From: Holdemanella biformis DSM 3989
GTDB lineage: Bacteria; Bacillota_I; Bacilli_A; Erysipelotrichales; Erysipelotrichaceae
Direction: 5' to 3'
DNA length: 64,000 bases
Assembly: GCF_000156655.1 (NCBI RefSeq)
Contig: NZ_DS996846.1
Location: 89,884 to 153,883, forward strand
The position numbers and the translations under genes are program-made. A model generated the notes under the pieces. It saw nothing but the letters and a program-made list of their open reading frames with translations, ran no database searches and was not told the DNA's origin. Positions 11,948-43,728 of the stretch are shown one piece after another (position 1 is the first letter of the stretch; each line of letters begins with the position of its first letter).

Positions 11948-11956
11948 TTCCATATA

Positions 11957-13843: not shown

Positions 13844-13869
13844 ATAATATTCTCCTTTTCCTGTTACAC

Positions 13870-13959
13870 TTATACAGTTAACCAAAAAACAAAAGCACTC
13901 GAAATCACAACGGTTGCTTGTCTGAACTTATTTGGTTTTGTTTTGTGTTTTTGTGACAT
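13870..13959 (-). CDS. Possible 29-aa membrane peptide upstream of the BspA-like gene
   Basis: An ORF of 29 codons (MSQKHKTKPNKFRQ, then a single hydrophobic stretch ATVVISSAFVFWLTV) ends 26 nt before the BspA-like start. AAGGAG lies 11 nt upstream of its ATG. A run of seven G (plus 13977-13983) lies just before that ribosome-binding site. A second overlapping ORF of 21 codons could use the same site. The basic N-terminus and single membrane segment suggest a small membrane peptide or a leader; its function is not recognised. Confidence 0.4.
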   Translation of the reverse strand: MSQKHKTKPNKFRQATVVISSAFVFWLTV

Positions 13960-27052: not shown

Positions 27053-27086
27053 AAAAAAAGAGAACCATATCCAACGATATGATTCT
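27053..27086 (-). terminator. Terminator of the PucR-type regulator
   Basis: Minus-strand 11-bp stem AGAATCATATC/GATATGGTTCT followed by CTTTTTTT. It begins inside the stop codon and separates the regulator from the pilus operon. Confidence 0.85.
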
Positions 27087-28798
27087 ACATCGCTTCAACC
27101 AATCTATAGGTAATCAATCCATTTCGTACAGCCAACATTTCTGCTGGATTATCAAAATCCATACCAGATATTTCTTTAATCTTTTCTAGACGATACGAAA
27201 CTGTTCTATAATGAACAAACATTTTTTTAGAAGTTTGTTTCAAACTTTGCTTGTTGTTAAGAAAACATTCGAGTGTTTCAATAAGACTTCCATTTTTTTG
27301 TTTATCGTATTCATACAATTTTTGTAAAGATTCAGGTACATAAGATAGTAATTCTTTCTTATCACTAACCTTTACAAACATTCTAAAAAAGCCTAACTTT
27401 GAACATTCAACAACCGATTTATTTTCGTCACCTATTACTTTACGAATAACATGAATATATTCCAAGGCTATTTTAGAATCAGAAAACGATTCCTTTAATG
27501 CATGGTACCCTTTTACTTTTTTACCGATTCCTACTATAAATTCAGCATTCGCATGTCGCTTATCCAAATCACTTTGAATCTTCTTTTGCAGTTCTTCAAT
27601 TCTCAATCGAAGTTGAAGATTACTCATCTGTTCATCTTTCTTGCAAATATAAATAATTTGGTTTGTATTACTCATCGTATACTTTTCTGGTAAATCACGT
27701 AAAAATTCCTTTTCTACGATTTCCGTTTGTCTTAACTGTTCACTCGTGAATCTTTGATTATTATTTCTTGAAAGCAAACGAAAAACAACAACACGAAGAT
27801 CATCCGTATCCTTTAATCCAAGAATATTCGCAACATCATCCTCTTCTTCATTTGATAACGTACCAACTAATAAGCGATATTCTAAATCTTTTTGATACTT
27901 ATTGTTCAACTCTTCCTCAGCAGAAAGGCGCATCATTGCAAACTGTAAAGATGTAATTGCATCTTCCATACCACAAAAATCCATACCAGTTAATTCATTA
28001 TTTTTTTCAGTCATCACAAGATAAAAATATCGACCATCAAACAATTGTATCTTATTGATATATTCTACATATTCTCTTTTTTGTATAAAGTATTGATGCT
28101 TAGTTACGATATCTGGTATATAGCTTTTTACATTTTGAGCAACATTAAAACCTGCAGGATTTTTTTCACTCGATGCGTAACAATCATAATTACTACTATA
28201 TAATGCAACTGGATTGTCTAACATTTTATTAAGTAAAACTAATAGTTTTTCAATCACAACATTCAAATCAGATTCATTTAATAAAACATCACTAAAATTT
28301 TCATGTGTCAAAATAAAATATGAATAGTTAGCAAGCTCCTCATCAAACACTTGTTTTAATATATATTTAACAATACGCCAAAAATATTGATTTTGTAACA
28401 TTTCTAAAACCGGAATTCGATTTTCTTCACAATACTCCAATAAAATATCAAATAAATAAGATGGAATAGATTCATTTCGCATAATAATAAATCCACTAAT
28501 TTCCTTTTTATTTAACTCTTCCAAATGAAAAAGAAACTGATCTTTACTCATTTTTTCATACACATTAAGACTCGTTAAAAGTATTTCCCCACCAATTATA
28601 TGCTTCTCTGTATCTGATTCTTTAACAATTCTAATTCCTTTTATTTCTCTGTCTACCCCCCCCGAGATTTTTGCCTATTAACCGAATCTGCAAATTTTCA
28701 TTTGATTCAAGTAAATTTTTTATGGTATACAAATTACATCCCACACTTTCATATTTATGACACAAATACTGTATTGTATTTAAATGTTTTACCTCCAT
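27085..28798 (-). pseudogene. PucR-family regulator, frame-interrupted at a G8 tract (probably phase-variable, OFF)
   Basis: Two open segments join into one PucR-type protein. The first starts at ATG 28798 (MEVKHLNTIQYLCHKYE) and reaches LIGKNLGG at a run of eight G. Read with seven G, it continues VDREIKGIRIVKESDTEKHI, IGGEILLTSLNVYEKMSK and then 490 further residues. Together these give the PucR N-terminal domain (SIPSYLFDILLEYC), a GGDEF-like middle and a C-terminal PucR HTH (KQTSKKMFVHYRTVSYRLEK). With G8 the protein stops about 13 codons after the tract. A TGCTATAAT extended -10 lies at 28836-28844. An internal GTG at 28563 could yield an N-truncated protein. It sits directly upstream of the pilus operon. 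A sequencing indel is the alternative explanation. Confidence 0.8.
28656..28663 (-). repeat. Homopolymeric G8 tract inside the PucR-type gene
   Basis: Eight consecutive C on the plus strand. Loss of one base (or gain of two) restores the full reading frame, the hallmark of slipped-strand phase variation. Confidence 0.85.
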
Positions 28799-28913: not shown

Positions 28914-28938
28914 TAAAAAAAGACTCTTTCGAGCCTCT
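28914..28938 (-). terminator. Terminator of the lipoprotein gene
   Basis: Minus-strand AGAGGCTC-GAAA-GAGTCTTT followed by TTTTAG; the stem overlaps the stop codon. Confidence 0.8.
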
Positions 28939-29602
28939 ATTGATTGTTTCTAACTATAGTTCCGTATTTTAACTGTCCGTCCTCATACACAAATGACCAC
29001 TGTTCTTGAGTGTCATTAATATTTCCGTTAAGGTCTTTAGAATAGTACGCAAACCATACTTCATCGTCTGTTTTTTGTGTAATATGGTCAAAGAAATACG
29101 TAGCACCGATGAATCCATCAATACGATATCGTTCATAGACCTGTCCATTTTCTTCCCAGAACGGAGTCTCTTTAAAGGCATTTGTATTTACATCCATATA
29201 TGGGATTGGGTATCTTCTAGAAAAATACTGATACCATACGTTCTCAACATCTTGTAACGAGTGGATTCTTGGATCAGTAATTAACATATTTCCATTTTCT
29301 CCTGAACTTTCAAAGAATGTTCCTGCCATAAACCAATAGTATGTATGCCAAAAGTCATCACGATGGTCATTTGCATAAGCCAGAAGTTCTTCATCCGTAT
29401 ATAAATCAGACAAAGTGGTATCAACAACAGGCTTAGCTTCAGATTCTTCAGGCAAGCTGACTGCTTCCTGCTTTGATTCCTTCTTTTCTTTCTTCTTCTG
29501 AACTGCTTTCTCATCCTTTTTGTCTTTGTTGTTTTCGCATGCACATCCAGACAAAGTCAATACAGCTGCTAAAACTGCTGCGATTATCCTATTTCTTTTC
29601 AT
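28937..29602 (-). CDS. Putative lipoprotein of unknown function
   Basis: 221 residues. A lipoprotein signal ends at LSGC (Cys20). A highly charged Lys/Glu linker (about 24-60) precedes a globular domain rich in Trp and Tyr (FWHTYYWFMAG, VWYQYFSRRYP, VWFAYYSKD). No known family was recognised. The domain's aromatic content and outer-surface location suggest a binding or sensor role, but nothing specific can be said. It is monocistronic, with its own terminator, downstream of a candidate ncRNA on the same strand. Confidence 0.75.
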   Translation of the reverse strand: MKRNRIIAAVLAAVLTLSGCACENNKDKKDEKAVQKKKEKKESKQEAVSLPEESEAKPVVDTTLSDLYTDEELLAYANDHRDDFWHTYYWFMAGTFFESSGENGNMLITDPRIHSLQDVENVWYQYFSRRYPIPYMDVNTNAFKETPFWEENGQVYERYRIDGFIGATYFFDHITQKTDDEVWFAYYSKDLNGNINDTQEQWSFVYEDGQLKYGTIVRNNQ

Positions 29603-29646
29603 ATTCCCACCATTTTCCTGCTATTAGTATATCATCTGGATACAAA

Positions 29647-29711
29647 ACAAACAAAATCTCGATTGACTTCATGCAACCTCTCAATCGTCATGAAAATTTT
29701 TGGATTTTGCT
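29647..29711. repeat. Dispersed intergenic repeat, copy 1
   Basis: About 65 bp beginning AACAAACAAAATCTCGATT and ending TTTTTGGATTTTGCTCA, with an internal inverted pair CGATTGA/TCAATCG. It is closely similar to the copy at 31056-31121, on the other side of the exodeoxyribonuclease gene, and more distantly to 30049-30118. Confidence 0.65.
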
Positions 29712-29713
29712 CA

Positions 29714-29982
29714 TAAAAAAAGCATCTATACAAGATGCTAATATATGCCATTCTCGGCTGCCGTTAGTTTTTTTCTACCTCTACTTTTTTCAAAGTGACT
29801 TGTTGCTGACTTAGGACAATCGGTCAGAACCCGAAATAACTGCCGTTAGTTTTTGTTTACCTCTACTTACCAATGGTTTTTATCATTAATAAGCGACTTG
29901 TTACTGACTTAAGACAATCGGTCAGAATCCTAATAAAGAGAATGACAACAATAATAACATGTAGATAGAATCTCTATCTACA
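29714..29982 (-). ncRNA. Candidate structured ncRNA with two tandem domains
   Basis: A self-contained unit on the minus strand: a promoter ends about 6 bp before a perfect 10-bp hairpin (29960-29982). Two direct repeats follow, 29840-29927 and 29758-29829, each beginning TTCTGACCGATTGTC, containing AAGTCAG and AACAAGTC, and ending AACTAACGGCAG. In each repeat CTG-CCG at the start can pair with CGGCAG at the end, closing a domain. A terminator (stem 29721-29739, then seven T) ends the unit. No ORF has a ribosome-binding site. It does not match a riboswitch class I can recall. Confidence 0.55.
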
Positions 29983-30016: not shown

Positions 30017-30048
30017 TGAATTCTATACTGTAGTATTTTTAATATCTA

Positions 30049-30118
30049 AACAAAATCCCGGCTAATCCCAAATACCATCTCAATCGTTGCGAGTTTGTAC
30101 ATTTTGAGTTTTGTTCAG
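30049..30118. repeat. Dispersed intergenic repeat, copy 2 (diverged)
   Basis: Begins AAACAAAATCCCGGC and ends TTGAGTTTTGTTCAG, with the shared core CATCTCAATCGTT. Same orientation as the copies at 29647 and 31056. Confidence 0.5.
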
Positions 30119-30132
30119 GGAAAAATGTTTGA

Positions 30133-30160
30133 ACAAAAAAAAGGAGTGAAACCACTCCTA
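30133..30160 (-). terminator. Terminator of the exodeoxyribonuclease gene
   Basis: Minus-strand AGGAGTG-GTTT-CACTCCT followed by eight T. Confidence 0.85.
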
Positions 30161-30907
30161 AATGTTAATATCCAACATAATTGGACAATGATCAGAACCA
30201 TAGATGTCATCTAGAATCTTGGAATCCACGATTTTATCCTTCAAATCATTCGATACGAGCCAATAATCCAGCCTCATTCCAATATTGTTCTCTCTTGCCT
30301 GACCTCGATAACTCCACCACGAATATTGGATGGTTTCTGGATTTAAAACTCGATATGTATCCACCAAGTTACTCAACAAATTCTCTTTAAAACTGTCTCG
30401 TTCTTCATCAGAGAATCCTGCTGTGCCACGAATCATGTCAGGATACGGAACATCAATCTCATTATTAGCTACATTGAAATCACCGCAGGCCATAACTGGT
30501 TTATCTAAAGACTTTAAGTAGTTTCCAAATGCTTCATCCCATTCCAATCGGTAATCTAAACGCATTAAACCATCACCTGATGTCGGTGTATAGACGGTTA
30601 CAAGATAGAATTCTGGATACTCCAGAGTAATGATGCGACCCTCATCATCGAATTCAGGTACATTTATACCGTATTTAATGGATAAAGGCTTCTTTTTACA
30701 GAGAACCATAGTCCCACTGTACCCTTTACGCTTGGCGCTGTTGATGTATTGATACGGGTAATTATCCGTATATGATTCGATTTGTTCTGGATGAGCCTTC
30801 GTCTCCTGAATACATACAAAATCTGCATCTAATTCATCCAGAACATCCGTAAAGCCTTTCTTCATCACAGCTCGAATCCCATTCACATTCCACGAAATAA
30901 GTTTCAT
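30158..30907 (-). CDS. xth: Exodeoxyribonuclease III / AP endonuclease
   Basis: 249 residues from ATG 30907, chosen because AAGGAGG lies about 9 nt upstream and the conserved N-terminus MKLISWNVNGIRA begins there. The Mg-binding Glu is in CIQETKAH, the catalytic Tyr/His region is VTVYTPTSG, the Asp/Asn pair is CGDFNVANNEID, and the C-terminal DDIYGSDHCPIMLDI holds the catalytic Asp-His. It cleaves DNA at abasic sites and acts as a 3' exonuclease in base-excision repair. It is monocistronic, flanked on both sides by members of one intergenic repeat family. Confidence 0.93.
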   Translation of the reverse strand: MKLISWNVNGIRAVMKKGFTDVLDELDADFVCIQETKAHPEQIESYTDNYPYQYINSAKRKGYSGTMVLCKKKPLSIKYGINVPEFDDEGRIITLEYPEFYLVTVYTPTSGDGLMRLDYRLEWDEAFGNYLKSLDKPVMACGDFNVANNEIDVPYPDMIRGTAGFSDEERDSFKENLLSNLVDTYRVLNPETIQYSWWSYRGQARENNIGMRLDYWLVSNDLKDKIVDSKILDDIYGSDHCPIMLDINI

Positions 30908-31055
30908 AAAGCGACACCTCCTTGTATTTGTCAAGTATATGTTATTACACAAGATACAGATAATTCCAACAGCCGTTCCCGTCACGAAACCCAAACAAAA
31001 TCTCGGCGAAAAGAGTTTACGCCATTCCAAAACAAACAAAATCCCGTTGAACACA

Positions 31056-31121
31056 AACAAAATCTCGATTAACTTTAAACAGCCTCTCAATCATCATGAA
31101 GATTTTTGGGTTTTGTTCAGA
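31056..31121. repeat. Dispersed intergenic repeat, copy 3, with partial units
   Basis: Begins AAACAAAATCTCGATTAAC and ends TTTTTGGGTTTTGTTCAG; close to copy 1. Two partial starts (AAACAAAATCTCGGC near 30991 and AACAAAATCCCG near 31032) precede it, suggesting nested insertions. Confidence 0.6.
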
Positions 31122-31235
31122 AAAAACCAAATGCACAAAACCCCTCTTCAAAGCTTCTGAAAGACTTTCTCATTGTAATTGAACGATTTCTAGGCTTTTT
31201 TATTTGGAATCCGACGGGAAAATGTTTGGATTTGC

Positions 31236-31272
31236 AGCAAAAAAACAAGCAGTAGAAATGATAATCTACTGC
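31236..31272 (-). terminator. Terminator of the resolvase-like gene
   Basis: Minus-strand GGCAGTAGA/TCTACTGCT stem followed by TTGTTTTTTT. Confidence 0.8.
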
Positions 31273-31281
31273 CTTTTGTGT

Positions 31282-31926
31282 TTATTTTGTAGGTTTCTTG
31301 TCTTTGATTTCCTTCTTGTACTTGTAGTAAGTCGCTCTAGGAATGTCGAGTTTTTTAATCAGTTCAATATCTGAATAGGTTCCATCGAATGATTTTGAAT
31401 ACTGCATAATCTGCTTCTTCATATCCTCAGCCTTTGGGATGTTATAAACAGCTCCTTTTACTCCACCGATTTGAGAACCGTTCTTCTTGGCTGCCATTAG
31501 TGCAGCTCTTTTTAGGCTGGACGACATTTCCTTGCTCCATCGAGCCTGCTCAGCACAGCACTTCAGACATCGTATGACATACTCCCCAATCTTCCTTTCA
31601 GGCGGTTTGACGTCCAAAGTCTCAAACAATTCCCTGATAAACGAAAGATTACATTCGGGTGTATTGATAAAATAAATGTCAATGCCTCTGAAAAAGCATT
31701 CCACATAGAATTCAAAGAAATCCTCTTCATTTCTGAAATCTTTTAACGTCATGAAATAGTCGCAGAAATATATTTTGCTTCTCCAATCGATACGTGAAAG
31801 ATACTGCGTTAGTTCATCCGAATTTACACTAACCAGTTGAATATCATGGTAAAGTTCAAACAGATTAGGCATCGTCTTTCCGTTCTTTTTTTCTTCTTCT
31901 GATGTTTTGAAATAATATCGTTTCAT
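31282..31926 (-). CDS. Divergent serine-recombinase-like protein
   Basis: 214 residues with the architecture of a small serine resolvase. RYYFKTS at the N-terminus lines up with the catalytic YARVS (Ser9). FFRGIDIYFINTP matches the GVxFxSL strand. QARWSKEMSSSLKRAALMAAKKNGSQIGG matches the E-helix and linker. A C-terminal helix-turn-helix ends IPRATYYKYKKE. The usual DRLxR arginine segment reads DYFMTLKDF, so the active site is probably incomplete and the protein may be a DNA-binding regulator or accessory factor. It diverges from the tyrosine recombinase operon, with two dyads between them. The family assignment comes from reading alone. Confidence 0.6.
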   Translation of the reverse strand: MKRYYFKTSEEEKKNGKTMPNLFELYHDIQLVSVNSDELTQYLSRIDWRSKIYFCDYFMTLKDFRNEEDFFEFYVECFFRGIDIYFINTPECNLSFIRELFETLDVKPPERKIGEYVIRCLKCCAEQARWSKEMSSSLKRAALMAAKKNGSQIGGVKGAVYNIPKAEDMKKQIMQYSKSFDGTYSDIELIKKLDIPRATYYKYKKEIKDKKPTK

Positions 31927-31993
31927 GGCTTTATTATATTCTATTTTCTAAATCATGACAATTGTTAACCTGTAAAAAATCTATATTTAGGTG

Positions 31994-32076
31994 TTGCATT
32001 TATATACTTTCGTTGTTATCATAGTTTTGTAAAGTACATATTTAGTTATATTCTTTATAGACTTTGTAACGTACAA
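31994..32076 (+). promoter_or_regulatory. Promoter and twin dyads of the recombinase operon
   Basis: TTGCAT (31994-31999), 17-bp spacer, TATCAT (32017-32022). Just downstream, two dyads of the form TTGTA-N3-TACA(A/T) lie at 32027-32039 and 32064-32076, centres 37 bp apart. They sit over the start region, where a repressor would block transcription. The divergent HTH-bearing resolvase-like protein is the natural candidate; recombinase binding is the alternative. Confidence 0.5.
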
Positions 32077-32098
32077 CGCACTTTAGGAGGTATGGCTT

Positions 32099-33412
32099 AT
32101 GGAAGGAAATAGAACAAACAGCAACAAACTGCATTTTGGTATCTACAATCATGTTCTGACTGTAGATAACGATAAATTAGTAACTCGAAAACTGATAGTT
32201 CTCAAAGATGGAAAACTTCCGGTTGCTTTCACCAATTTCGATATGTTTGCTGGAGGCTCAGGAACTCCTCTGAAACATCTGGACAGCAACGATGGACCTC
32301 AGTACTTATATGTATGCAAGTTTCTCAATTATGTATTCTTTGAGAAATATTCCATTACGAAGCTGACAGATATAACAGCCGAAATGCTCATCTCTTTTTT
32401 AAAAGGCTATGGTTCATGCACTCTGCCAAATGATGATGAAAATACATCCAGAAGCAAATCCTCAGTGAACAGGTGTGTCAATTATGTTCTGAGCTTTGTA
32501 CATGAACTGGAACGTCAGAATCACAAGACAAAAGTAGACTGGAAGAAGATCTACAGGAAAGTCAAGAAAATCAGTACAAAGGCAAGACGTGTCATAACGG
32601 AAGAACAGCTTGCGTTTGAGATTCGATACAAGGAAAACGTCAATGAAATATTCAGGGATATTACAGAAGAAGCTTTCCAGATCATTATGCAGGTGATCAT
32701 AGACAGGCATACAAACATTCTGATGCTTGCTGCTCTGGGAGCTTTTGCAGGACTGAGACCTTCTGAAGCCTGCAATGTACGCCGAGAAGAATACGGCGGA
32801 ATCTTTTTCGAGCTATTTGGCGATGAAATCTACAATATCGAAATCGACCTGACAAAAGAAGTTCGTCTACGCAGTGACGATGTACCTGTTGGCGGTATAA
32901 AAAAACACAGAAGACAAAAGGTATATCCAGCGTTTCTTGCCGAATTTCGAACGCTGTATGAAATCTATATGGATTTTATTGAAGGCAGAAAGTTTGAAAC
33001 CGATTATGGTCCATTGACAACGAATCAATACGGCAAAGCTTACACATATAATGCCTATTTACGTGAATTTAAAAAGGTCATCTGTGAAGCCAGAGAAATA
33101 ATGATTCACAGTGACAACCCGAGCACACAGCTTTACGGGCATATGCTGTACACTCATTCATTGACTCCGCATATATTCAGGCACTGGTTTACGGTAAAGC
33201 TTGTTCAGTTTGGTGAACAGCTTCCTACAATCATGAAATACAGAGGAGACAGAAGTCCAGAATCTGCCAACACCTATCTACAGAACAAGAGCGAGCTTAT
33301 CAAACAGCTTGACAGTGTTGAAGATGAAATCTGGAGCTATAACACATGGAGGGTAAATAAAATTTATGGTCAATCTAACCCAGAAAATCAAGAATCTAGC
33401 ACTACAGAATAA
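32099..33412 (+). CDS. Tyrosine recombinase 1 (TnpA-like)
   Basis: 437 residues. An N-terminal SAM-like core-binding region spans about 65-150. The catalytic domain has Arg220 (AGLRPSE), His358-x2-Arg361 (TPHIFRHWF) and nucleophile Tyr393 (ANTYLQNK). The usual second His (LGH) reads RGD, a known variable position. The start is supported by AGGAGG, 8 nt upstream. It is the first of three recombinases translated from one message; the next gene begins inside its 3' end (47-nt overlap). In Tn554-type elements the first recombinase acts together with the second in site-specific transposition; a similar division of labour is inferred. Confidence 0.85.
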   Translation: MEGNRTNSNKLHFGIYNHVLTVDNDKLVTRKLIVLKDGKLPVAFTNFDMFAGGSGTPLKHLDSNDGPQYLYVCKFLNYVFFEKYSITKLTDITAEMLISFLKGYGSCTLPNDDENTSRSKSSVNRCVNYVLSFVHELERQNHKTKVDWKKIYRKVKKISTKARRVITEEQLAFEIRYKENVNEIFRDITEEAFQIIMQVIIDRHTNILMLAALGAFAGLRPSEACNVRREEYGGIFFELFGDEIYNIEIDLTKEVRLRSDDVPVGGIKKHRRQKVYPAFLAEFRTLYEIYMDFIEGRKFETDYGPLTTNQYGKAYTYNAYLREFKKVICEAREIMIHSDNPSTQLYGHMLYTHSLTPHIFRHWFTVKLVQFGEQLPTIMKYRGDRSPESANTYLQNKSELIKQLDSVEDEIWSYNTWRVNKIYGQSNPENQESSTTE

Positions 33413-35264
33413 CATTCCCTATCAGGACTGCACTGCAAAACTGACGGAATATTTCGTTTTCAACAACTGGTTCAATGACACTCCCAAAGTCATAAACAAA
33501 GAACTCTACATCTCGGATGAGACATGGAACAACAACGAAAATGAAATCGTCAGCTACTTCAGCTCATTCAACAAAACACCTGACCAGAAATATGAAAGGC
33601 TTATTCAGATGTTTGAAAAGGAATTCCCTGAGACTTTTGGGTATTTCAATAGATTCAAAAGAGATGTCACTGTTGACAGAAGCTCTATTATAAGTGTTCT
33701 GGATTTTATGCTTTATTACCTTCCTGGTGAGATTGCTTTTTCCAGCAACACAGAAATCAAGTATCTGTTAAAAGACGCATCAGAACACCTGAAAAGATGT
33801 GACGCCGAAGTGCTCGTTTTCTTCATCAACTGGCTGAGCGAAAGCCGAAGTATCCGAACCGCTTTTAATGGACTCTATCAGGTAAACAACTATTCAAAAG
33901 CCAAGAACAATGAAGCATATGACCTGAACTTCTATCTAAATGTTCTTTATCATATGCTGAACGCTGACTACATTTCAAAGAATCAGATGTATCTGAAAGC
34001 AGCCGAATCCAAGGATTTCATTGATACATGGCTCTTTATCTCACTGCATTTTCTATGTGCTTTGAGAACTACGGACTTACTGCGTTTTCCGCATCCCAAG
34101 CTTGCCTACTCTCCTGAAGAAGTATTAGAGAAAGTCAAAAAGGGCGAATTCACAGATGAAGATGCAAAACGTACACTGCTGTCCATAAATGTGTATTTAA
34201 ATGCGGTCCAGCTGACTCCAAACAAGACGAAAGACTACTCTGGAATTTCGACCATTCATTTTCATGTACCTTCATCTCTGGAAGTGCATGTCGGTACTCT
34301 GTTTGCAATTGCCGAAGCACATTTTCAGCTGTCTGGAGCCGATGAAAGCCAGCCGCTGCTACGAGTTATCCGTGAATACAGAGATATTAAGAAAGCGATG
34401 GGCGATGAGATTGCAAATCTGTTCATCAAATCCAACTTCCACTGTCGTCAGGCAACCAAGTCATTCCTTCAGATGATTGAGTATCTGACAAGAGATGTAA
34501 TTGCATCCAACAATGATTTCAACGTAAAAGGCTATGAATTAGCATCAAGAGCTCGTTCACACAAAGGAAGCTTTACAGAATTTGCAAATACGACACGAGT
34601 ATACCTGCAAGACCAAAAAATGTCTGGATACACTGCCGATTTTGTTGCACACGAATTGCTGGAGCGTGGCGTACTTTCAAACATTGCCACAATGCTTCTG
34701 AAAATGCTGTACAAGGATAAATTCGAAGAACTTGGCGTAGAGAACCAGACAAAGCTGATAAAGGAACTCTCTATGTCTCCTTTGGAAATTGAAAACTCAA
34801 TCGGCGTCATGCAAAGAGCGACGAATCAATCCAAACAGGCAGCAATCGAAATCATCAAAGCAGCAAACAAACAGGAGATTCTTGTCATTCTTCACCGTAT
34901 CGGCAACGACGAGGCACTCTCTAAAACTGAAGGAAGCCTGTGCATCATGTCTGCTATGAAAAAGCAGTGCCCTTTCAAAGAAAAAAGCACATGTATTGGC
35001 TGTCAGTATGAAGTATCGACAAAAACGACCGTATTCCAGCTGGCACAAATGTCACTGGACCTTAAAAGCCAGTACGATAAAGCAACCACTCAAATTGAAA
35101 AAGACCGATTAAAGACAATCGTTACTCAAACCATTCTGCCTAAATTACAGGATGTCCTGCTATGTATCAAGGAAAACTACGGCGATACTGAATTCAGCAT
35201 AATGAACAATCTAGTAAAGGAGCTAACTATAAATGAGCAGCAACAACGACAACAACATCAATAG
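33366..35264 (+). CDS. Tyrosine recombinase 2 (TnpB-like)
   Basis: 632 residues, close to the length of Tn554 TnpB. Catalytic candidates are Arg in CALRTTDLLRF, the His/Arg pair in SNFHCRQATKSF, His in RARSHKGSF and Tyr in TRVYLQDQK. A C-terminal cysteine group CPFKEKSTCIGCQYE could bind zinc. It overlaps recombinase 1 by 47 nt and recombinase 3 by 32 nt, so the three are translationally coupled. The ribosome-binding site is weak (GGAGGG 14 nt upstream), which fits coupling. Long N-terminal half without recognised domains, possibly DNA-binding. Confidence 0.8.
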   Translation: MVNLTQKIKNLALQNNIPYQDCTAKLTEYFVFNNWFNDTPKVINKELYISDETWNNNENEIVSYFSSFNKTPDQKYERLIQMFEKEFPETFGYFNRFKRDVTVDRSSIISVLDFMLYYLPGEIAFSSNTEIKYLLKDASEHLKRCDAEVLVFFINWLSESRSIRTAFNGLYQVNNYSKAKNNEAYDLNFYLNVLYHMLNADYISKNQMYLKAAESKDFIDTWLFISLHFLCALRTTDLLRFPHPKLAYSPEEVLEKVKKGEFTDEDAKRTLLSINVYLNAVQLTPNKTKDYSGISTIHFHVPSSLEVHVGTLFAIAEAHFQLSGADESQPLLRVIREYRDIKKAMGDEIANLFIKSNFHCRQATKSFLQMIEYLTRDVIASNNDFNVKGYELASRARSHKGSFTEFANTTRVYLQDQKMSGYTADFVAHELLERGVLSNIATMLLKMLYKDKFEELGVENQTKLIKELSMSPLEIENSIGVMQRATNQSKQAAIEIIKAANKQEILVILHRIGNDEALSKTEGSLCIMSAMKKQCPFKEKSTCIGCQYEVSTKTTVFQLAQMSLDLKSQYDKATTQIEKDRLKTIVTQTILPKLQDVLLCIKENYGDTEFSIMNNLVKELTINEQQQRQQHQ

Positions 35265-36927
35265 AAACAACATCATCACATCAGTCATCATGATTCCCGA
35301 ACTGAATGAATTTTCCTATAAGGAAGCTAAAAGACTGTTTCTAAGCTACAAGGAAAAAGGCGTTATCACAAGTGGGTACTTTGATGATAAAAGCTGGAGT
35401 GTAACAGATGAATACGCCAATTACGGATTGAACTTTGATTTAAAGAATATTGACTGTGATACATTTCTAAATACCATTGGTATCACAAAGCATGAATACA
35501 TCAATTATGTAAAAACCTATACGATATTCAAGTTTGGCGAACTTGCCTTCACAACACTTCGGGATTTTGTTGGACAGCTAAAGCATTTCATCGCATCCTA
35601 CGACTTTAACAAGCCAAGATTCGTTGATGATTACTACTATAATACGTGTAATCAAATCTCAGAGTTCTTTTCACTTATTAAAATCAGTGATGATTCGATT
35701 CAGGACAATCTTTTAAGAGCATTGGAAGATGTTCAGGACGATTTCAGAAAAAGAGCCCCAACACATCAGAGGACACTGGCATCCTTTGAATCCTATTTCA
35801 AATTCAACGACATTCTAAGCCGGTTCTGGGAAGAATCTACTGATGAGGATGAAAAGCTGTTCTACTTCCCTGTTTATTTGTGGTGGAATCTTTCTGGTGT
35901 TCTTCCTATGAGACCTCGTGAGTTTGTTCTGACTCCAAGAAACTGCCTGAAAAAATCAGGTGATTCATGGACGCTCACAATCGTCAAAGACAAATTAAAA
36001 GGAAGCAACAGGAAAGTATCGTATAAGATATCGACAGATTATGAAAGGGTTACGTATTCCGTTCCTGATAAGTTTGCCGATTTAATCAGCTGGTATCTGG
36101 AAGCTACGAAAAAGTATTCTGATAACAAACTGTACACACTCTTTATTGCTGATACGCACTATAGAAAGTGGGATAGGTGTATTCCCTACAACAGCCGCTA
36201 TTTTACCTATCATAACCTTTGTACCTGTCTGAGATATTTCTTTGAACAGATTGTTTCAGAAAGATATGGATATCATATCGTTTATGACAAGTCCCTGCAC
36301 AACCTGACTTCAAACGATATCGAATACATCTACCTTGGAGATACACGACATCTGGCTATGATCAATATCGTCATGGAAGGAGCTCCTCCTATGATTGCCT
36401 CTATTCTTGCAGGTCATGACAATACAAACATGACAGCATTTTATTTCAGCAATGTAGCTGAATATGTGGAATGTAAGGCAAGAAGACAGTATGTAAGGAC
36501 GATTCAGGGCAAACAGACGTATTCAATCAGTAAACGATACAATCAGCCTTTGCTTGCCAAAAACTATATACCTCTTGGTGACAACCGGTTCTGCTGCAAT
36601 CCACAGGTGGCAGAACACGACTTCTCGTACTGCCTGAATATCGCAGATGACAATGGATATATTGGCAGCTGTGAAAAATGCATCTATTACAGAAATTCAG
36701 GAACGAGCTTCAAAAAGACAGAAGAAAACATCCGAAACGATTTGCAGATTCAGCTGGCCACACTGAAGGATATCGTCCATGAATACAGAATGCATGAGAA
36801 GAATAAAGAAGATATCGAGCAGGCGGTTTTAAAGCTTCAAAACGCCGAGTATTCGTACAGACGATTCAAGATGGAACAGATGCTGCTGGAAAACACGGAA
36901 AAAGAAGAAAATGAAGGAGATGACTGA
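35233..36927 (+). CDS. Tyrosine recombinase 3
   Basis: 564 residues. The catalytic set is Arg227 (LPMRPREF), Arg372 (GDTRHLAM), His395 (LAGHDNTNM) and Tyr404 (TAFYFSNV). A cysteine/histidine cluster after the active site (CCNPQ, SYCLN, GSCEKCIYY) is probably zinc-binding, as in large Tn554-like recombinases. AAAGGAG precedes the start. A third recombinase of this size in one operon is the recombinase-in-trio arrangement. The gene ends 3 nt before the coiled-coil gene. The C-terminal 70 residues are strongly helical and charged. Confidence 0.85.
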   Translation: MSSNNDNNINRNNIITSVIMIPELNEFSYKEAKRLFLSYKEKGVITSGYFDDKSWSVTDEYANYGLNFDLKNIDCDTFLNTIGITKHEYINYVKTYTIFKFGELAFTTLRDFVGQLKHFIASYDFNKPRFVDDYYYNTCNQISEFFSLIKISDDSIQDNLLRALEDVQDDFRKRAPTHQRTLASFESYFKFNDILSRFWEESTDEDEKLFYFPVYLWWNLSGVLPMRPREFVLTPRNCLKKSGDSWTLTIVKDKLKGSNRKVSYKISTDYERVTYSVPDKFADLISWYLEATKKYSDNKLYTLFIADTHYRKWDRCIPYNSRYFTYHNLCTCLRYFFEQIVSERYGYHIVYDKSLHNLTSNDIEYIYLGDTRHLAMINIVMEGAPPMIASILAGHDNTNMTAFYFSNVAEYVECKARRQYVRTIQGKQTYSISKRYNQPLLAKNYIPLGDNRFCCNPQVAEHDFSYCLNIADDNGYIGSCEKCIYYRNSGTSFKKTEENIRNDLQIQLATLKDIVHEYRMHEKNKEDIEQAVLKLQNAEYSYRRFKMEQMLLENTEKEENEGDD

Positions 36928-36930
36928 TAT

Positions 36931-37650
36931 ATGGCACGACCTAGATTATTCACAGAAGACGAACTTATTGCTTTAATCAACGAATATTATCTGGAATATC
37001 CAAATAGGATGATTAAAACATCAGACCTTGAGCGATATGCAAGGACTCATGGACGCCCTAATTTCAAGGCGTATTCCATTCGACGCTGTCCAAAAGCCAA
37101 ACAATATATTGACCAAATCAACGCCAGTAATCAGGTGACATTGGAAACGACAATCGTTACATGGAGACAGCTTGATGTCGATGCTTTTCTGAATCTGAAC
37201 CGTTCAAGAAGTGACTTGAAAAATGCTCTCATTCAACGAGACAACTATTATGGCGAAGTATGCCGCAGTGCTGGAGAATTTCTCAGGGACAAAGAGCGTC
37301 TGGAAGCTAAAATCACTCGTATGAATTCTGAAATCAACAATTTAAAGAATCAGGTTGCTGAATTAGAGCAGATGAATACCAATAAAATCAATCGGTATTC
37401 ACAGGAAATGCTTTCAAAAATGAAGAAGGTTCTGGATACGTATGTTTATCCAGATATCGCAAATGAGATTCTGAAAAAAGAAGGACTGGACTCTTTGTTT
37501 GGCCTGTACGTCAACCCTGAAAGTGTTGAATCAGAGCTGATTACTCCTGAATCAGTACTTGAAATCGGCGATAATCAAACCACCACTTCAGATGAAGACG
37601 ATACAGTAGATTCTATTCAGGATCTGATGGGAGGTTTTGACGATGAGTAA
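36931..37650 (+). CDS. Coiled-coil accessory protein (TnpC-like)
   Basis: 239 residues. Residues 1-60 may form a small DNA-binding region (FTEDELIALINEYYLEYP, KTSDLERYARTHGRPN). Residues about 95-160 form a clear coiled coil (RDKERLEAKITRMNSEINNL). The tail is very acidic. Tn554-type elements carry a small TnpC after the two recombinases that sets transposition frequency and orientation; position and coiled coil suggest an equivalent here, though TnpC is shorter. GAAGGAG precedes the start. It overlaps the zinc-ribbon gene by 8 nt. Confidence 0.65.
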   Translation: MARPRLFTEDELIALINEYYLEYPNRMIKTSDLERYARTHGRPNFKAYSIRRCPKAKQYIDQINASNQVTLETTIVTWRQLDVDAFLNLNRSRSDLKNALIQRDNYYGEVCRSAGEFLRDKERLEAKITRMNSEINNLKNQVAELEQMNTNKINRYSQEMLSKMKKVLDTYVYPDIANEILKKEGLDSLFGLYVNPESVESELITPESVLEIGDNQTTTSDEDDTVDSIQDLMGGFDDE

Positions 37651-40399
37651 GAAAAGAATCTTTGCGGAAGAACATCCTGAGTACCTGAAGTACTGGGATT
37701 TTGAAAAGAACACGCTCGATCCATACAAAATTGGACCGATGTGCAACGAAAAAGCCTACTGGAAATGCGAACATGGGCATCGGTTTGAACGTATAGTTTT
37801 TAATATGTCTAGAGGAAACACAACCTGTCCAGAATGCAAAAAGCGTTCAACAATGGTTATTTCAAAACCTGGAATCATGAAATTCTGGGATAAAGAAAAA
37901 AACACACTTGATCCTGAAATCACTCCTGCAAGAAGTAATGAATATGCCTGGTTTAAATGTCCTAAATGTGGATATTCATGGAGGACTCAGATATGTGGAC
38001 GTTTAAGAACGGACAAATGTCCAGCATGCGAGACAAATAATGTTATAAGAAAAGGAGTAAATGACTTCCGAACAGTTTCCCCTCAACTCGCATTGGATAC
38101 ATCAGATGAATTGAATCCTGATATTGATTTAAATAAACTTGGAATAGGCTCAAAAACAAGAATCCATTGGAAATGTCATATATGTGGATTTGAATGGGAT
38201 GCTCCTATTCATGGACGTGCACATCGCTATAATGGTAATAACGGAATCGCTGCTTGTCCTGCCTGTGCTAAAATCCGCAGAAAAGATGGATATGATGTTG
38301 ATTATCCGGAACTAGTGCCTTTATATTCTCCAAATAATCCAATACCTTTAAACGAAGTACGAGGGGTAAAAGCAAAATTTTTATGGATTTGTCCAAAGCA
38401 CGGTGAATATGAACAAAAACTTGGGCACATGATTCGTGCTTTAAAAAATGGTACTATAGGATGCCCATATTGTAACGGTTTTAAAGTCCGTCGTGAAGAT
38501 AGTGCTGGAGCAAAAGCACCTGAACTAATCAAAGAGTGGGCCTCATCAAATGAATCAACCCTATATGAATATGCACCTAACTCCAAATATCTTGCTACTT
38601 GGTGTTGTCCTGACTGTAGAACAAAATGGAAAGCTCCTATCAATGTAAGAGTTCAAGGATATGGCAAATGTCCTACCTGTTATGGTAATAAGACATTTAA
38701 GGAACGATATCCTGAATTAGAAAAGTTTTATGCCAAAGATAACACGCTTCCTTATGAAGATGCTATTGTTTCTGATTATACTCCGAGAAACTGGATCTGT
38801 GAAAAAGGTCATGAATTCACGGCTTCATTTTACAAAATTCATGATCAAGGTTTTAGATGTCCTTATTGCGAAAATAAAAAAGCACTGAAAGGATACAATG
38901 ACTTTGAACATCTTTATCCTGTACTTGCACAAGATTATGACGAAGAAAAGAATGGCAACAAAGCCAGTGAAGTTGTTGTTTCTTACCGAAATGTTTACTT
39001 TAAGTGTAAGAACGGTCATTCATTTGTACGGCCTATTATACGACATGTCGAATTAAATGGGCAATGTCCTATTTGCAGTGGAACTGTACTTAAAAAAGGT
39101 AGTAATGATTTAGCAACGATTTATCCAGCGGTAATTTTATTCTGGGATTATGAAAAGAATGAAAAAAGACCTGATCAAGTTTTAGCAACGCTTGACAATA
39201 GTTACCATTTTGTCTGTTCTAATGGTCATCATTTTAAATGCACATTACGAGAGCTCGTTGAAAATGATTTCCATTGTCCTGTCTGTGAAGGTAAACGTGT
39301 TGACCCAGAAAAAACTTCTCTTCAAGCTTTAAATCCAGAACTTGCTTCAGAATTTTCTGTAAATAATAAATCAACAGCAAGTCAGATTGCCTTTGATACA
39401 AGCAGAAAAGTATTATGGACATGCCCTACTTGTGGGGAAGATTACTTGTATCCTGTAAATGAACGTAAAATCGGCGATAATTCCTGTCCATATTGCAACC
39501 ATACAAAATTAAAATCAGGAGTTAATGATTTAACGATTACCAACCCACAACTTGCCAGTGAATTTTCGCCTAGAAATGACAAAAAGGCAAATGAAGTTGG
39601 TGAATGGCAGGTATATGAAGTATATTGGATTTGTTCAAAATGTGGTACTGAATATTACGCTAAAATACGAGATCGAAGTGTTGGAGATGCTTCTTGTCCT
39701 GCTTGTGCTGGAAAAAGAGTTCAAGCTGGTTTCAACTCTTTTGCAGATGAACATCCTGATATAGCCAAAGACTGGTCTCCTGACAATGATAAGAAACCTA
39801 CTGAAGTTCTATCAAACAGTTCTTATATAGCCGAATGGATTTGTTCAAAATGTGGTTATACATACAAAGCTACTATCAAAGATAGAGTCGCTAATGACAA
39901 CCTATGTCCTGCTTGTGCTGGTAAAAAAGCCCAACCTGGTTTCAACTCTTTTGCAGATGAACATCCTGATATAGTCAAAGACTGGTCTCCTGACAATGAT
40001 AAGAAACCTACTGAAGTTCTATCAAACAGTTCTTATATAGCCGAATGGATTTGTCCTACTTGTGGCTATACGTACAAAGCTTCTGTACGAGATAGAGTTG
40101 CATCAGGTGATTTATGCCCAGCCTGTGCTGGTAAAAAAGCTCAGGCAGGTTTTAACAGTTTATTAGACCTTTATCCTGAAATTCAAGATGAATGGGCTGA
40201 AAACGAAAACACTCTGCTAGGCATCTTCCCAGATGAGATTCTGCCTAGCAGTACTGCAAGAGTCTGGTGGGAGTGCAAAGACTGTGGACGAAAATATTTA
40301 CTCAGCGTCAACATGTGGGTAGAGAAACACATTCGTGGAATGACTTCCTGTACATACTGTAGCGGTTTGAGAATGCGTGAAACTCATGTCCTGTTGTAA
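37643..40399 (+). CDS. Giant zinc-ribbon protein with 13 repeats
   Basis: 918 residues from ATG 37643, chosen over an upstream TTG because GGGAGG lies 8 nt before it. The protein is built of 13 units of about 68-70 residues, each with an aromatic/charged opening (PELxxxW, SPxND), then CxxC or CxxGH, a short spacer and CPxC. This fits the probable zinc-ribbon domain family (DUF4379-like). Units 11 and 12 are nearly identical, from a recent duplication. No catalytic domain is present, so it is likely a DNA- or RNA-binding scaffold. Its place at the end of the recombinase operon suggests a role in the element (target choice, synapsis or cargo). The stop codon abuts a group II intron. Confidence 0.8.
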   Translation: MSKKRIFAEEHPEYLKYWDFEKNTLDPYKIGPMCNEKAYWKCEHGHRFERIVFNMSRGNTTCPECKKRSTMVISKPGIMKFWDKEKNTLDPEITPARSNEYAWFKCPKCGYSWRTQICGRLRTDKCPACETNNVIRKGVNDFRTVSPQLALDTSDELNPDIDLNKLGIGSKTRIHWKCHICGFEWDAPIHGRAHRYNGNNGIAACPACAKIRRKDGYDVDYPELVPLYSPNNPIPLNEVRGVKAKFLWICPKHGEYEQKLGHMIRALKNGTIGCPYCNGFKVRREDSAGAKAPELIKEWASSNESTLYEYAPNSKYLATWCCPDCRTKWKAPINVRVQGYGKCPTCYGNKTFKERYPELEKFYAKDNTLPYEDAIVSDYTPRNWICEKGHEFTASFYKIHDQGFRCPYCENKKALKGYNDFEHLYPVLAQDYDEEKNGNKASEVVVSYRNVYFKCKNGHSFVRPIIRHVELNGQCPICSGTVLKKGSNDLATIYPAVILFWDYEKNEKRPDQVLATLDNSYHFVCSNGHHFKCTLRELVENDFHCPVCEGKRVDPEKTSLQALNPELASEFSVNNKSTASQIAFDTSRKVLWTCPTCGEDYLYPVNERKIGDNSCPYCNHTKLKSGVNDLTITNPQLASEFSPRNDKKANEVGEWQVYEVYWICSKCGTEYYAKIRDRSVGDASCPACAGKRVQAGFNSFADEHPDIAKDWSPDNDKKPTEVLSNSSYIAEWICSKCGYTYKATIKDRVANDNLCPACAGKKAQPGFNSFADEHPDIVKDWSPDNDKKPTEVLSNSSYIAEWICPTCGYTYKASVRDRVASGDLCPACAGKKAQAGFNSLLDLYPEIQDEWAENENTLLGIFPDEILPSSTARVWWECKDCGRKYLLSVNMWVEKHIRGMTSCTYCSGLRMRETHVLL
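39731..40150 (+). repeat. Recent tandem duplication of a zinc-ribbon unit
   Basis: Two 210-bp units starting TTCAACTCTTTTGCAGATGA at 39731 and 39941 are almost identical over their first 150 bp or so. The repeat can expand or contract by recombination, changing the zinc-ribbon number in multiples of 70 residues. Confidence 0.85.
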
Positions 40400-42329
40400 A
40401 TAGGGTAGAGGGATAAAATAAAATTATCGCCCCTCCCGTTGAACCGTACGTACGGGTCTCGTATACGGCTCTACATTTATATCGAAACTATAACGAATCA
40501 CAAAATCTCAAGATAGTAAATAAGGGGATTGACCAAACCTGGCCTATCTCCTTTCTTTATGCCTAGAACAGTAGGAGAAAGAAGAAAGTTTACGATATTT
40601 CCACAACTTCTCCTATACCATCCGAGTCTAGAGTTAGCACATTTAAATATATCTTCGTGGGTAAGATTACTTCTACATGCTTTATTTAGTTTCACAAGAT
40701 TGTTGTATATAGTCATTGGCCTTTTCCATTGTTTAATGATGATACATCTAACTTTATGTCGCAACCATTGGCCAAATTTATCCAAGAATCCTTTGATACT
40801 TGAGATTTTAAAATATTGTATCCAACCTCTGACCATTTGATTCAATTTTTCAAATGTAACTGATAGAGGTCTTGAAACTGCATGTTTTCTTTCCATCCAT
40901 TTCTGAATATTTGAGTACAGACGTTTCTTCCTATCTTTAGTAGGAGTACATTTCCACACTGTTCTAGCTTTGTAAAATGTAAAACCAAGAAATTGACCTT
41001 TAGTTGGTCTAACTACTTTAGTCTTTGTTGCACTAACCTTCAAGAATAGTTTTCTTTCTAGCCACGATGTCACTGATTTCATTACACGATTTGCACTCAT
41101 TTCACTTTTAACGAAAATGATACAGTATAGTCGGCATACCTAGCGAAGCGAAGATTTCTAGATTCTAGCTCCTTATCAAACTTGTCTAAATAGATGTTTG
41201 AAAGAATTACACTAATTGGACCACCTTGTGGTGTTCCAATAGTAGAACTACTTACTAGTCCTTTATCCAAAATTCCTGCTTGCAGATAAGCTCGTATCAA
41301 ATGTAATGTTTTACTATCATTGACACGCTCTCTTAAGATTGAAATTAATTTATCATGATTTACTGTGTCGAAGAATTTCTCAATATCCAGGTCAACAATC
41401 CATTCATAGCCTTCATTTAGATAGCTAAGCACTTCTTCCATCGCCATGTGTGCACTACGATTTGGTCTAAAGCCATAACTGTGTTCACTAAATACGGGTT
41501 CATAGATTTCACTTAGCACTTGTAACATAGCTTGTTGGATTACTCGGTCTACAACGGTTGGTATACCCAATGGTCTTTGTTTGCCATTTGGCTTAGGAAT
41601 ATAGACTCTTTTGACGGGCATGGGCTTGTATTGTTTATTCAAAATTTTGGAAATTAGGTCTTCCTTATATTGATTAAACCACTCCTCAACCTCTTGCACA
41701 GTCATTTTATCCACTCCTGGTGCACCTTTGTTCTTCTTGACCTTTCGGATTGCTTTCTGTAGATTCTCTTCACTTAAAATCTTTTCAATCAATTCCATTT
41801 GCTGCTCCTCCTTCTATCTGTAAATTTATCTGGAAACATCCCAATTACCTTTACCATCTATGGTTACGTTCCATAGTTCTAGGCTATTCTCATATTCGGA
41901 CTATCCAAACATTGCTAATAGAGATTCGCACTCTATAAACGTTTCAGTCCTTCAGTATTGCTACCTACTATGACTTCATCTGAATTCTCATGGTTAACCT
42001 TTTTCGCTACAAGGGTACTATCACTGATTTTAAAGTTTACTAGAATTCCTTGTCCATGAGACCTCCCGGGGTAAGACATGGGTCCTATTTCTTTCACAAC
42101 GTCTTGATTTACTGTCTTGGTTTTACGTTTACCTTTTGGACTTCGATTTGTAATGCAATCTCATCCACCATTTAGCCTCATCAAGTTTCTGTGCGTACGC
42201 TCAAAAGAATTGCTACACCACTTCCTTCACCCATGACATCACTGCCAACGGCTTGTGGTTCACTACACTTGGCGGTAACTACCCATGGTTGGTTTAACTC
42301 CAACTGAACTCATGCCATGCCCGGCACAC
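40400..42329 (-). ncRNA. Group II intron RNA (probably class C)
   Basis: On the minus strand the intron starts GTGTGCCGGGCATGG (5' end 42329, GUGYG rule). Domain V is at 40441-40471 (GAGCCGTATACGAGACC, CGTACGTACGGTTC), and a domain VI-like stem ends CTACCCTAT at 40400. The reverse transcriptase lies in domain IV. The 5' flank is a terminator hairpin with its T-run, the usual insertion site of bacterial class C introns. Its 3' end falls exactly at the zinc-ribbon stop codon on the other strand. The boundaries are read from consensus, accurate to a few bases. Confidence 0.85.
40498..41798 (-). pseudogene. ltrA: Group II intron reverse transcriptase/maturase, frameshifted at YADD
   Basis: The reading frame from 41798 gives normal reverse transcriptase blocks (KKNKGAPGVD, RPLGIPTVVDRVIQQA, YGFRPNRSAH, DIEKFFDTVNH, GTPQGGPIS) and reaches FARYAD. 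There the expected second Asp codon is replaced by TATAC, a net gain of 2 bp that destroys the catalytic YADD motif and shifts the frame. The downstream frame continues CIIFVKSEMSANRVMKS through the maturase domain (FLGFTFYK, GWIQYFKIS) to 40498. Expected full length is about 430 residues. The protein is inactive as read; splicing would need a maturase supplied in trans. A genuine small mutation is more likely than a sequencing error because the bases themselves differ. Confidence 0.88.
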
Positions 42330-42331
42330 GC

Positions 42332-42373
42332 AAAAAAAAGGTATGAATTCTTCTTGAACTCATACTTTTTTTG
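42332..42373. terminator. Bidirectional terminator beside the intron
   Basis: Stem GGTATGAATTC/GAACTCATAC flanked by T-runs on both strands. It probably served the zinc-ribbon gene (plus) and the NlpC/P60-like gene (minus); the intron now separates it from the former. Confidence 0.75.
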
Positions 42374-42375
42374 TG

Positions 42376-42496
42376 GGTTTTGTTCATTTTAACAATTTTT
42401 GCCTGAATTTTAGATTTAAGTTATCATGGGGGTTTTGTTCATTTTTTCCAAAATTCCTCATTTTTTGAATTTAAGTTTACATGGGGGTTTTGTTCA
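42376..42496. repeat. Three GGTTTTGTTCA motifs at an exact 55-bp period
   Basis: Copies at 42376, 42431 and 42486, the last two preceded by ATGGG and TTTAAGTT-like sequence. It is followed by an inverted ACAAAACC near 42504. The same motif ends the dispersed repeats near 30-31 kb. Confidence 0.6.
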
Positions 42497-42557
42497 AATT
42501 TTGTACAAAACCACCTAAAAATTTTTTTCAGTTACTTTTCACGAATTTCTCATCTCA

Positions 42558-43427
42558 TTAACGATTTACATGAACATAGCCAATAAATGGTTGCCCACAT
42601 GCTACACTTGTTAAAACAGTTTGGTTACCTAGCCATCCACCATGAACAGCTTGATTATTACCGACATATAATGCAACATGCCCTTGATATACACAAATAT
42701 CACCTGGAACTGGATTATTTGTCAATGTACCTAAACTTAAATAAGCTGTGGGTGCCCCATGGAAATGAATTCCAACGGCAGCTAAAGAATTTGTGACTAA
42801 CATTGTACAATCTTGATATACACCAATCTGAGCTAATGCAGCATCCGCAATTTTTTGATAAAAACTCTTTTCAACATGAACTGTAATATTTTTTTCACTC
42901 ACATTACCAGCTGTATCTTTGGCTTTAATCGTTGTTGTGAATGTTCCTACATCAGCCGTATTGATATTGTCCGTTAATTGAATCGTTCCTTCTTCATTTA
43001 AAGAAACATAGCTATTGATATCGAAAACTTCATTTTGTTCAACTGTAAGAACATCTTCACAAGTAATTTCAGGAGCTGTAGTATCTTGTACTTTTACTTT
43101 TACTTCAGCACTATGTTTTTCACTTGTTTGTTTATTTTCTCCCTCAATAGAAATAGTTTGTTTTCCAATTGTATCAATATCTAAATCTTTAACTTTTACC
43201 TTATAATTCTTTGATTCATATACAGAAACATTTTTTGTTTTCTTCTTAAATTCTACATTCGCATATTTTTTATGTAATTCTTTTTTAAATACAGATTTCA
43301 TGGAATCTGCATCTTGATATTCGACTTTATAAGCTGGTGTGTTTTCTTTTGCTGCAACATTTGTAACGCCTCCAAATGTAGATGTAGCAATAATCAAACT
43401 TACGAATGCTTGGACTAATTTTTTCAT
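42558..43427 (-). CDS. Secreted NlpC/P60- or CHAP-like cell-wall hydrolase
   Basis: 289 residues. A signal peptide (1-26) is followed by a basic region (about 40-115) and a bacterial Ig-like domain (about 115-185, DTTAPEITCED to KDTAGNVSEKNITVHV). The C-terminal papain-like domain has the probable catalytic Cys in VYQDCTMLV and His in GHVALYVG. PVPGDICVYQ is the usual substrate-groove strand. It would cleave peptidoglycan stem peptides or cross-bridges outside the cell. The start has AGGAGG. It is transcribed alone, away from the BlaRI-like locus. Confidence 0.82.
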   Translation of the reverse strand: MKKLVQAFVSLIIATSTFGGVTNVAAKENTPAYKVEYQDADSMKSVFKKELHKKYANVEFKKKTKNVSVYESKNYKVKVKDLDIDTIGKQTISIEGENKQTSEKHSAEVKVKVQDTTAPEITCEDVLTVEQNEVFDINSYVSLNEEGTIQLTDNINTADVGTFTTTIKAKDTAGNVSEKNITVHVEKSFYQKIADAALAQIGVYQDCTMLVTNSLAAVGIHFHGAPTAYLSLGTLTNNPVPGDICVYQGHVALYVGNNQAVHGGWLGNQTVLTSVACGQPFIGYVHVNR

Positions 43428-43597
43428 AGTTATGGGCCTCCTCCTTGCTCACACAATTAAAGAGGCTACACTATTTAGTCCAAAGTGTCAAAAGAATACC
43501 CGTATTTCCCACAATTTAACATATTAATTTGTTTTAATTTGCCATTATTAACAAGTCTGTCCCATTTTTTTGCACTTTTTAGTAGAAATAAAAACTA

Positions 43598-43728
43598 CAA
43601 AAAGGACCTGAACAAGTTAATGTTGTCCAAGTCCAATACTAGCTATAATACGTTTTGAAACTTATACCGCACTTTAAATTATTGTAGATAAAATTCACCT
43701 AACTCCACCAAAATTTATAATGCTAGTA
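43598..43728 (-). repeat. 3'-end repeat with terminator hairpin, copy 1
   Basis: About 130 bp directly after the stop codon of a small secreted protein. It ends with a 12-bp hairpin (GGACTTGGACAA with TTGTTCAGGTCC) and five T. A diverged copy follows metK at 46205-46335. Shared blocks are AAATTTTGG, TTAGGTGAATTT, TATAGCT and ATTGGACTTGGACAAC. Confidence 0.7.

Follow-up and report, generated by a model that had tools for sequence, protein, structure and literature searches.

Genomic islands of the GInt type, the ginABCD islands of Bardaji et al. 2017, combine three genes of the recombinase type with a small fourth one, and in Pseudomonas all four are required for the island to excise and to integrate (PMC5385486). 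The strand-biased circularizing integrative elements, reported from Gammaproteobacteria, have the gene order IntA-Tfp-IntB-Srap, and recombinase-in-trio (RIT) elements have three recombinases in tandem and 34-bp terminal inverted repeats (PMC10214605). Here we describe a locus in a 64,000-nucleotide stretch of the genome of Holdemanella biformis DSM 3989 (contig NZ_DS996846.1, positions 89,884 to 153,883; hereafter the window), in which three genes of the tyrosine-recombinase type (A, B and C) and a coiled-coil gene (D) are followed by a gene for a zinc-repeat protein, ZR. We consider it rather probable that a mobile island of about 30.5 kb has integrated here, with a GInt-like A-D module and with ZR as a fifth core protein in end joining or target recognition. 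The anatomy of the island, its insertion boundaries, the conserved order of the five genes, an end motif shared with relatives and the variable cargo are directly observed. An earlier sequence-only reading had placed the locus beyond known elements. This is valid for ZR but not for three recombinases with a TnpC-like protein, as four-gene modules of this type are already known (PMC5385486, PMC10214605). The new part is ZR as a fifth core gene, which is undescribed as far as we searched.

Five genes within an insertion of about 30.5 kb

The five genes lie on the + strand in the order A-B-C-D-ZR (32099-40399), with neighbours overlapping or 3 bp apart, and to judge from the overlaps they may be translationally coupled. 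Their lengths are given in amino acids (aa):

32099-33412, + strand: core gene A, tyrosine recombinase, 437 aa (sequence matches to known recombinases; R-K-HxxR-D-Y)
33366-35264, + strand: core gene B, large tyrosine-recombinase-like protein, 632 aa, C-terminal Cys cluster (R-K-K-H-Y; homologous to B of a four-gene element)
35233-36927, + strand: core gene C, tyrosine-recombinase-like protein, 564 aa, C-terminal Cys cluster (R-K-GDxR-H-Y)
36931-37650, + strand: core gene D, coiled-coil protein, 239 aa, in the GinD/Srap/TnpC position (weak coiled-coil family matches; 13-member alignment)
37637-40399, + strand: core gene ZR, 13 DUF4379 (treble-clef zinc) repeats, 920 aa from TTG or 918 from ATG (PF14311 x13, E 6e-130)

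The sequence-only reading had correctly recognized five genes at 31282-40399, including the coiled-coil protein D and a 13-repeat zinc protein; the genes are adjacent or overlapping and the last one encodes 13 DUF4379 domains. Its claim of three tyrosine recombinases with recognisable catalytic residues is roughly right for two of them, A and C, but holds only in part for B, where a Lys appears to stand for the second Arg. These catalytic-type residues were read from alignments of 13 relatives. R220, K268, H358xxR361 and Y393 are invariant in A, with D in place of the usual H/W; the invariant residues of B are R234, K287, K365, H399 and Y413 (all 13 sequences), and those of C are R227, K256, R372, H395 and Y404 (13 sequences). 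Among the three proteins A alone matches known recombinases by sequence, and C is homologous to an annotated tyrosine-type recombinase/integrase.

The extent of the insertion follows from an empty site in a sister species (genome G001), where the genes that flank the island, adh and an NlpC/P60 gene, are adjacent. In the alignment to the corresponding locus, L022, window positions 10692-12008 and 42548-43600 match L022 positions 6609-7925 and 7930-8982, leaving a gap of 4 bases in L022. The island is therefore an insertion of about 30.5 kb at approximately 12009-42547, with the base of the right junction resolvable only to ~20 bp. The island sits in the terminator region that separates adh from the NlpC/P60 gene, and the insertion falls within a hairpin that reads GATGAGA-tcac-TCTCATC in the sister species. 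These boundaries enclose the ZR gene, for which a comparison with an empty site had been proposed by the sequence-only reading, and they supersede its suggested element ends of 31282 and 40399, the former being the stop-codon end of an accessory helix-turn-helix (HTH) gene. The view that the element has no other cargo has likewise to be abandoned: ~19 kb of cargo, including a sortase-pilus locus, regulators and an exonuclease III gene, lie on the A side, between the left end and the recombinase genes. The ends and flanks are as follows:

10784-11947, + strand: adh, iron-type alcohol dehydrogenase-like, left flank outside the island (the orthologue at L022 6701-7864 adjoins the NlpC/P60 gene)
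12003-12100: left end (attL side), host hairpin half GATGAGA(AA), then GTACAAAACCACT (12023) and AGGTTTTGTTCATG (12071); empty-site homology stops at 12008
42340-42372: terminator-like hairpin downstream of ZR and of a group II intron (DNA fold z -4.75)
42373-42547: right end, GGGTTTTGTTCA three times at 55-bp spacing, GTACAAAACCACC, AAAAATTTTTTT and CAGTTAC; empty-site homology resumes at 42548
42558-43427, - strand: NlpC/P60 (CHAP-like) gene, right flank outside the island, 3' end beside the insertion site (empty-site alignment)

With at most one mismatch allowed, the window has just two copies of GTACAAAACCACC, at 12023 and 42503, and the four copies of GGGTTTTGTTCA in the 2.5-Mb genome are all within the island (31108, 42375, 42430 and 42485); the element's own motifs are therefore present at both outer junctions. 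No clear direct repeat was seen by eye at the hairpin junction GATGAGA/TCTCATC (a GInt-type repeat would be imperfect and 10-17 nt long). No long inverted repeat was found at the island ends, which have outward direct repeats.

Relatives, end motif and targets

Relatives were found by a B profile search of GTDB genomes, which yielded 15 loci (a first scan of genome contigs with C alone had given no match, and the B alignment succeeded). The hosts include Streptococcus infantis, S. cristatus, two Secundilactobacillus, Anaerosporobacter faecicola and [Clostridium] spiroforme, and three of the loci were identical to ones known from an earlier genome search (L031 = L006, L032 = L007 and L044 = L008). 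The order A-B-C-D-ZR is present in all 13 relatives with contigs extending past C (L030-L035, L037-L041, L043 and L044), which span Clostridia, Bacilli and Erysipelotrichia and vary in their cargo. Excluded from this count were L036, whose contig ends inside C, and the decayed L042, which still has pieces of ZR. Linkage of ZR to the recombinases in relatives, the lack of which would have refuted the sequence-only reading, and co-occurrence of all five genes, for which that reading had suggested a survey, were thus found in 13 of 13 cases, and the four-gene relatives from Bacillota without DUF4379 fall outside the ZR clade.

By pairwise identity, ZR sorts into blocks that A, B and C also form, namely L006/L007/L033, L035/L043, L037/L038 and L039/L041. 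The constant linkage and the shared history argue for a role of ZR in the module. The proposal that the zinc protein belongs to the machinery is thereby strengthened, given its place after D in 13/13 relatives, a similarity that tracks the recombinases and a position inside the empty-site boundaries.

Four-gene modules were found on plasmids of Paenibacillus lautus (L080), Cytobacillus firmus (L086) and Enterococcus faecalis (L087), with profile matches to A, B and C in the same order as in the window and no match to DUF4379. In L080, the alignments to the five-gene profiles cover most of A, of B and of C, and the alignment of the small fourth gene (D) is weak. In a tree of C, a single branch with support 100/99 parts the 13 ZR-bearing rows from the three without ZR; some end branches are long. 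Cargo starts directly after D in the four-gene relatives, whereas ZR occupies this place in the five-gene islands. The four-gene modules L086 and L088, both on Bacillota plasmids, adjoin mercury resistance and bcrABC efflux genes. The elements are rare, since the B profile detected no relative besides the host in a drawn phylum sample of 392 genomes. There was no match in a phage collection.

A composite end motif, GTWCRWWTT-N(4-50)-A(4-8)T(6-9), is found once each in 9 of 13 element loci and only beside the target (window, L006, L034, L035, L037, L038, L040, L041 and L043). In shuffled sequence 0.05 such motifs are expected per pass; since these loci themselves served to define the motif, more importance attaches to its uniqueness than to this expectation. 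A slightly narrower form has a single occurrence in the host genome. Read from the neighbouring genes, some of which lack a database match and were named by eye, the targets are usually at the 3' end of a gene: the NlpC/P60 gene in the window, nrdD in L006, L007 and L040, hup in L037 and L038, and xerS in L034, L035 and L043, with L041 inserted upstream of xerS. The locus L082, a relative of G079, lacks the L006 end, and homology begins at the last nrdD codons. L006 and L007 have their typical AT-rich end at nrdD and on the A side, and relative to the ends the operon seems to be inverted in these two loci compared with the window and L040. The idea that ZR alone sets the target is not supported, on two counts: L006/L007 and L040 share nrdD yet their ZR proteins are only ~33% identical, and the ZR of L033 is close to that of L006/L007 but its ZR side adjoins icd.

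The A-side cargo of relatives often looks, by eye, like restriction-modification or other defence-like genes (L007, L033, L040, L030, L034 and L039). In the Lachnospiraceae element L037, which is 11 kb long with little cargo, a second rqcP-like (S4 domain) gene (7700-8418) lies just inside the A-side end, beside the resident copy, so that the target-neighbour gene looks duplicated by eye.

The ZR protein and rival explanations

The number of DUF4379 repeats in ZR ranges from 4 to 20 across the relatives, where the counts for L041, L006, L007 and L008 come from partial or split open reading frames (ORFs) and the contigs of L006 and L007 end inside ZR. A three-repeat stretch of ZR models well, with a predicted local distance difference test (pLDDT) score of 92.5, and its only convincing structure or sequence matches are DUF4379 proteins in solved structures of trypanosomatid mitoribosomes and their assembly intermediates. 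By analogy, these matches suggest that ZR binds nucleic acid. The literature searched contains no described function for DUF4379, only passing mentions, and an incomplete search found nothing that links this domain to recombinases. DUF4379 as a marker of such elements only was discarded, as DUF4379 genes without the module are present in G030 (on a short contig), G035 and G023. Long DUF4379 genes without a recombinase module were also seen in genomes of the same order (L075, L076 and L077).

In the explanation that we favour, the tyrosine-recombinase-type proteins A, B and C and the coiled-coil accessory D would work like ginABCD, with excision of a circle and site-specific insertion, and ZR would be a fifth core protein that has become fixed in a single clade of these islands in Bacillota. 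Nucleic acid is the probable ligand of its 4-20 zinc repeats. From the linkage and from the trypanosome mitoribosome proteins we infer that ZR most likely acts in end synapsis or target choice: it would help to unite the ends or to identify the target, and it might do so by reading the phased right-end repeats. That ZR is a modular nucleic-acid-reading array directing the tyrosine-recombinase machine, its repeats recognising the target, the phased end repeats or RNA, we regard as a long shot; if true, changes in the repeats would alter where the island inserts.

Several points weigh against the favoured explanation. That the island moves and forms a circle, how each recombinase takes part in catalysis and what ZR does are all what we infer. 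Lys365 of B seems to occupy the position of the second Arg, because of which B may be degenerate as a recombinase. Neither B nor C has a match in Pfam or among solved recombinase structures (the PDB sequence search gave chance matches only), and a structure model of B, with a mean pLDDT of 66 and ~45 in the catalytic half, was not used as proof of a recombinase fold; it had no PDB match with E <= 0.001. DUF4379 is found outside such elements and is thus not specific to recombination, and ZR is split into two ORFs in S. cristatus L041. The search profile came from the ZR-bearing clade, so the boundary of that clade is only sampled. Finally, the composite end motif is absent in L007, L030, L033 and L039.

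Alternatively, ZR could be a passenger, active for example in defence or surface biology, that stands first in the cargo of an ordinary four-gene GInt-like island. This is unlikely. The four-gene relatives do have cargo right after D (mercury resistance in L086, a caspase-like gene in L087) and DUF4379 genes are also found alone elsewhere, but in the 13 extended relatives, which represent several families, ZR is the only constant gene after D while the other cargo differs, its similarity pattern tracks the recombinases and the C tree needs just one gain. ZR could also regulate the module, for instance by binding mRNA or the end repeats to limit expression, and have no part in recombination, as would suit the final gene of a compact operon with solved DUF4379 relatives located in mitoribosomes. 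We found no sign of regulation, however, and no Rfam family in six relative loci, and the size and repeat number of ZR (4-20) seem too large for a plain regulator, making this possibility quite improbable.

A further alternative, compatible with any reading of ZR, is that the insert is composite, with a smaller five-gene element (~30990-42547) beside, or arriving after, an independently acquired pilus region. It concerns the extent of the island, in which the cargo, the three internal repeats and the other parts besides the core genes are as follows:

12500-13885, - strand: BspA-type leucine-rich-repeat surface protein (Pfam DUF285/LRR_5)
14431-15111, - strand: putative minor pilin or wall protein (neighbour of the sortase and pilin genes; no Pfam match)
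15108-15974, - strand: sortase (PF04203, E 2e-26)
16038-17585, - strand: pilin backbone protein (GramPos_pilinBB and SpaA domains)
17616-25430, - strand: giant surface protein, 2604 aa, LPxTG-like C terminus (ORF; C-terminal sequence by eye)
25427-26869, - strand: Rrf2-HD regulator (PF02082, PF13487)
27085-28563, - strand: PucR-type regulator (PF13556)
28937-29602, - strand: lipoprotein (signal/lipobox by eye; no Pfam match)
29638-29725: internal end-like repeat X1 (shares homology with X2 and X3; E ~1e-22 with a model of all three repeats)
30041-30138: internal end-like repeat X2 (same three-repeat model)
30158-30907, - strand: exonuclease III gene, xth (TIGR00633, E 4e-84; start placed from domain position)
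30988-31139: internal end-like repeat X3, three AACAAAATCYCG motifs and GGGTTTTGTTCA (motif search and three-repeat model)
31282-31926, - strand: accessory divergent gene, 214 aa, HTH like a resolvase C terminus (weak resolvase match, E 0.008)
40400-42329, - strand: group II intron, reverse transcriptase (RT) ORF split in two (Rfam RF00029, RF01998, RF02001; ends set by eye)

X1-X3 sit around xth inside the island, and a composite origin is therefore possible. The repeats flank xth and the module, and in L037 an element of 11 kb carries little cargo. Against this stand the left outer junction at 12009, which bears the element's own motifs, and an empty site without everything from 12009 to 42547; we regard a composite insert as conceivable but doubtful. 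The suggestion that X1-X3 are attC-like single-strand hairpins was dropped, as their folding was no better than that of shuffled sequences (z -0.5 to -1.5).

The accessory HTH gene has a homologue with 32% identity at the same place in L007 and was not found in most relatives examined. The group II intron lies directly after the ZR stop codon, the halves of its RT/maturase gene lie at 41798-41097 and 41100-40498, and a copy 93-95% similar is present in the sister species G001 (L028).

GInt-type islands require four proteins, and a clade with a fixed zinc-repeat fifth protein offers a handle on why so many are needed. Islands with restriction-modification, defence-like genes or a pilus locus may matter for gene flow in gut and oral Bacillota, and the conserved end motif enables finding and delimiting further islands.

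Comparison with known systems

The island resembles GInts in its operon of three tyrosine-recombinase-type genes (with B non-canonical here), in the small fourth gene (helix-loop-helix or coiled-coil in GInts, here D directly after C), in variable cargo and insertion at specific sites, often gene ends, and in a short AT-rich end with conserved stretches, represented here by the composite AT-rich motif in nine loci. It differs in having a fifth gene (DUF4379) after the fourth. In GInts the stop codon of the fourth gene marks where cargo begins, whereas here ZR is in that place and the window's cargo lies on the A side. The first Arg of RHRHY is reportedly missing from GinC, whereas R227 is invariant in C and the non-canonical protein is B. 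The cargo position and the first-Arg feature are not shared, and GinABCD were compared by description; we therefore describe the island as GInt-like rather than as a proven member of the GInts, a likeness drawn from architecture, with homology seen only to the Bacillota four-gene relatives.

The strand-biased elements have, in the same order, an ordinary recombinase, a non-canonical recombinase-like protein, a large recombinase and a coiled-coil accessory, but no zinc-repeat gene. Their second protein is without the RHRY motif; B has R, K, H and Y, with Lys at the expected second Arg. The Tn554 family (TnpA, TnpB and TnpC) shares tyrosine recombinases, a coiled-coil accessory and site-specific insertion; compared by description, it has two recombinases with TnpC and no DUF4379 gene, in contrast to the three recombinase-type genes here. 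RIT elements share the three tandem recombinases, but their proteins are smaller, they have no fourth or fifth gene and they end in 34-bp inverted repeats, whereas the island described here has five core genes and outward direct repeats.

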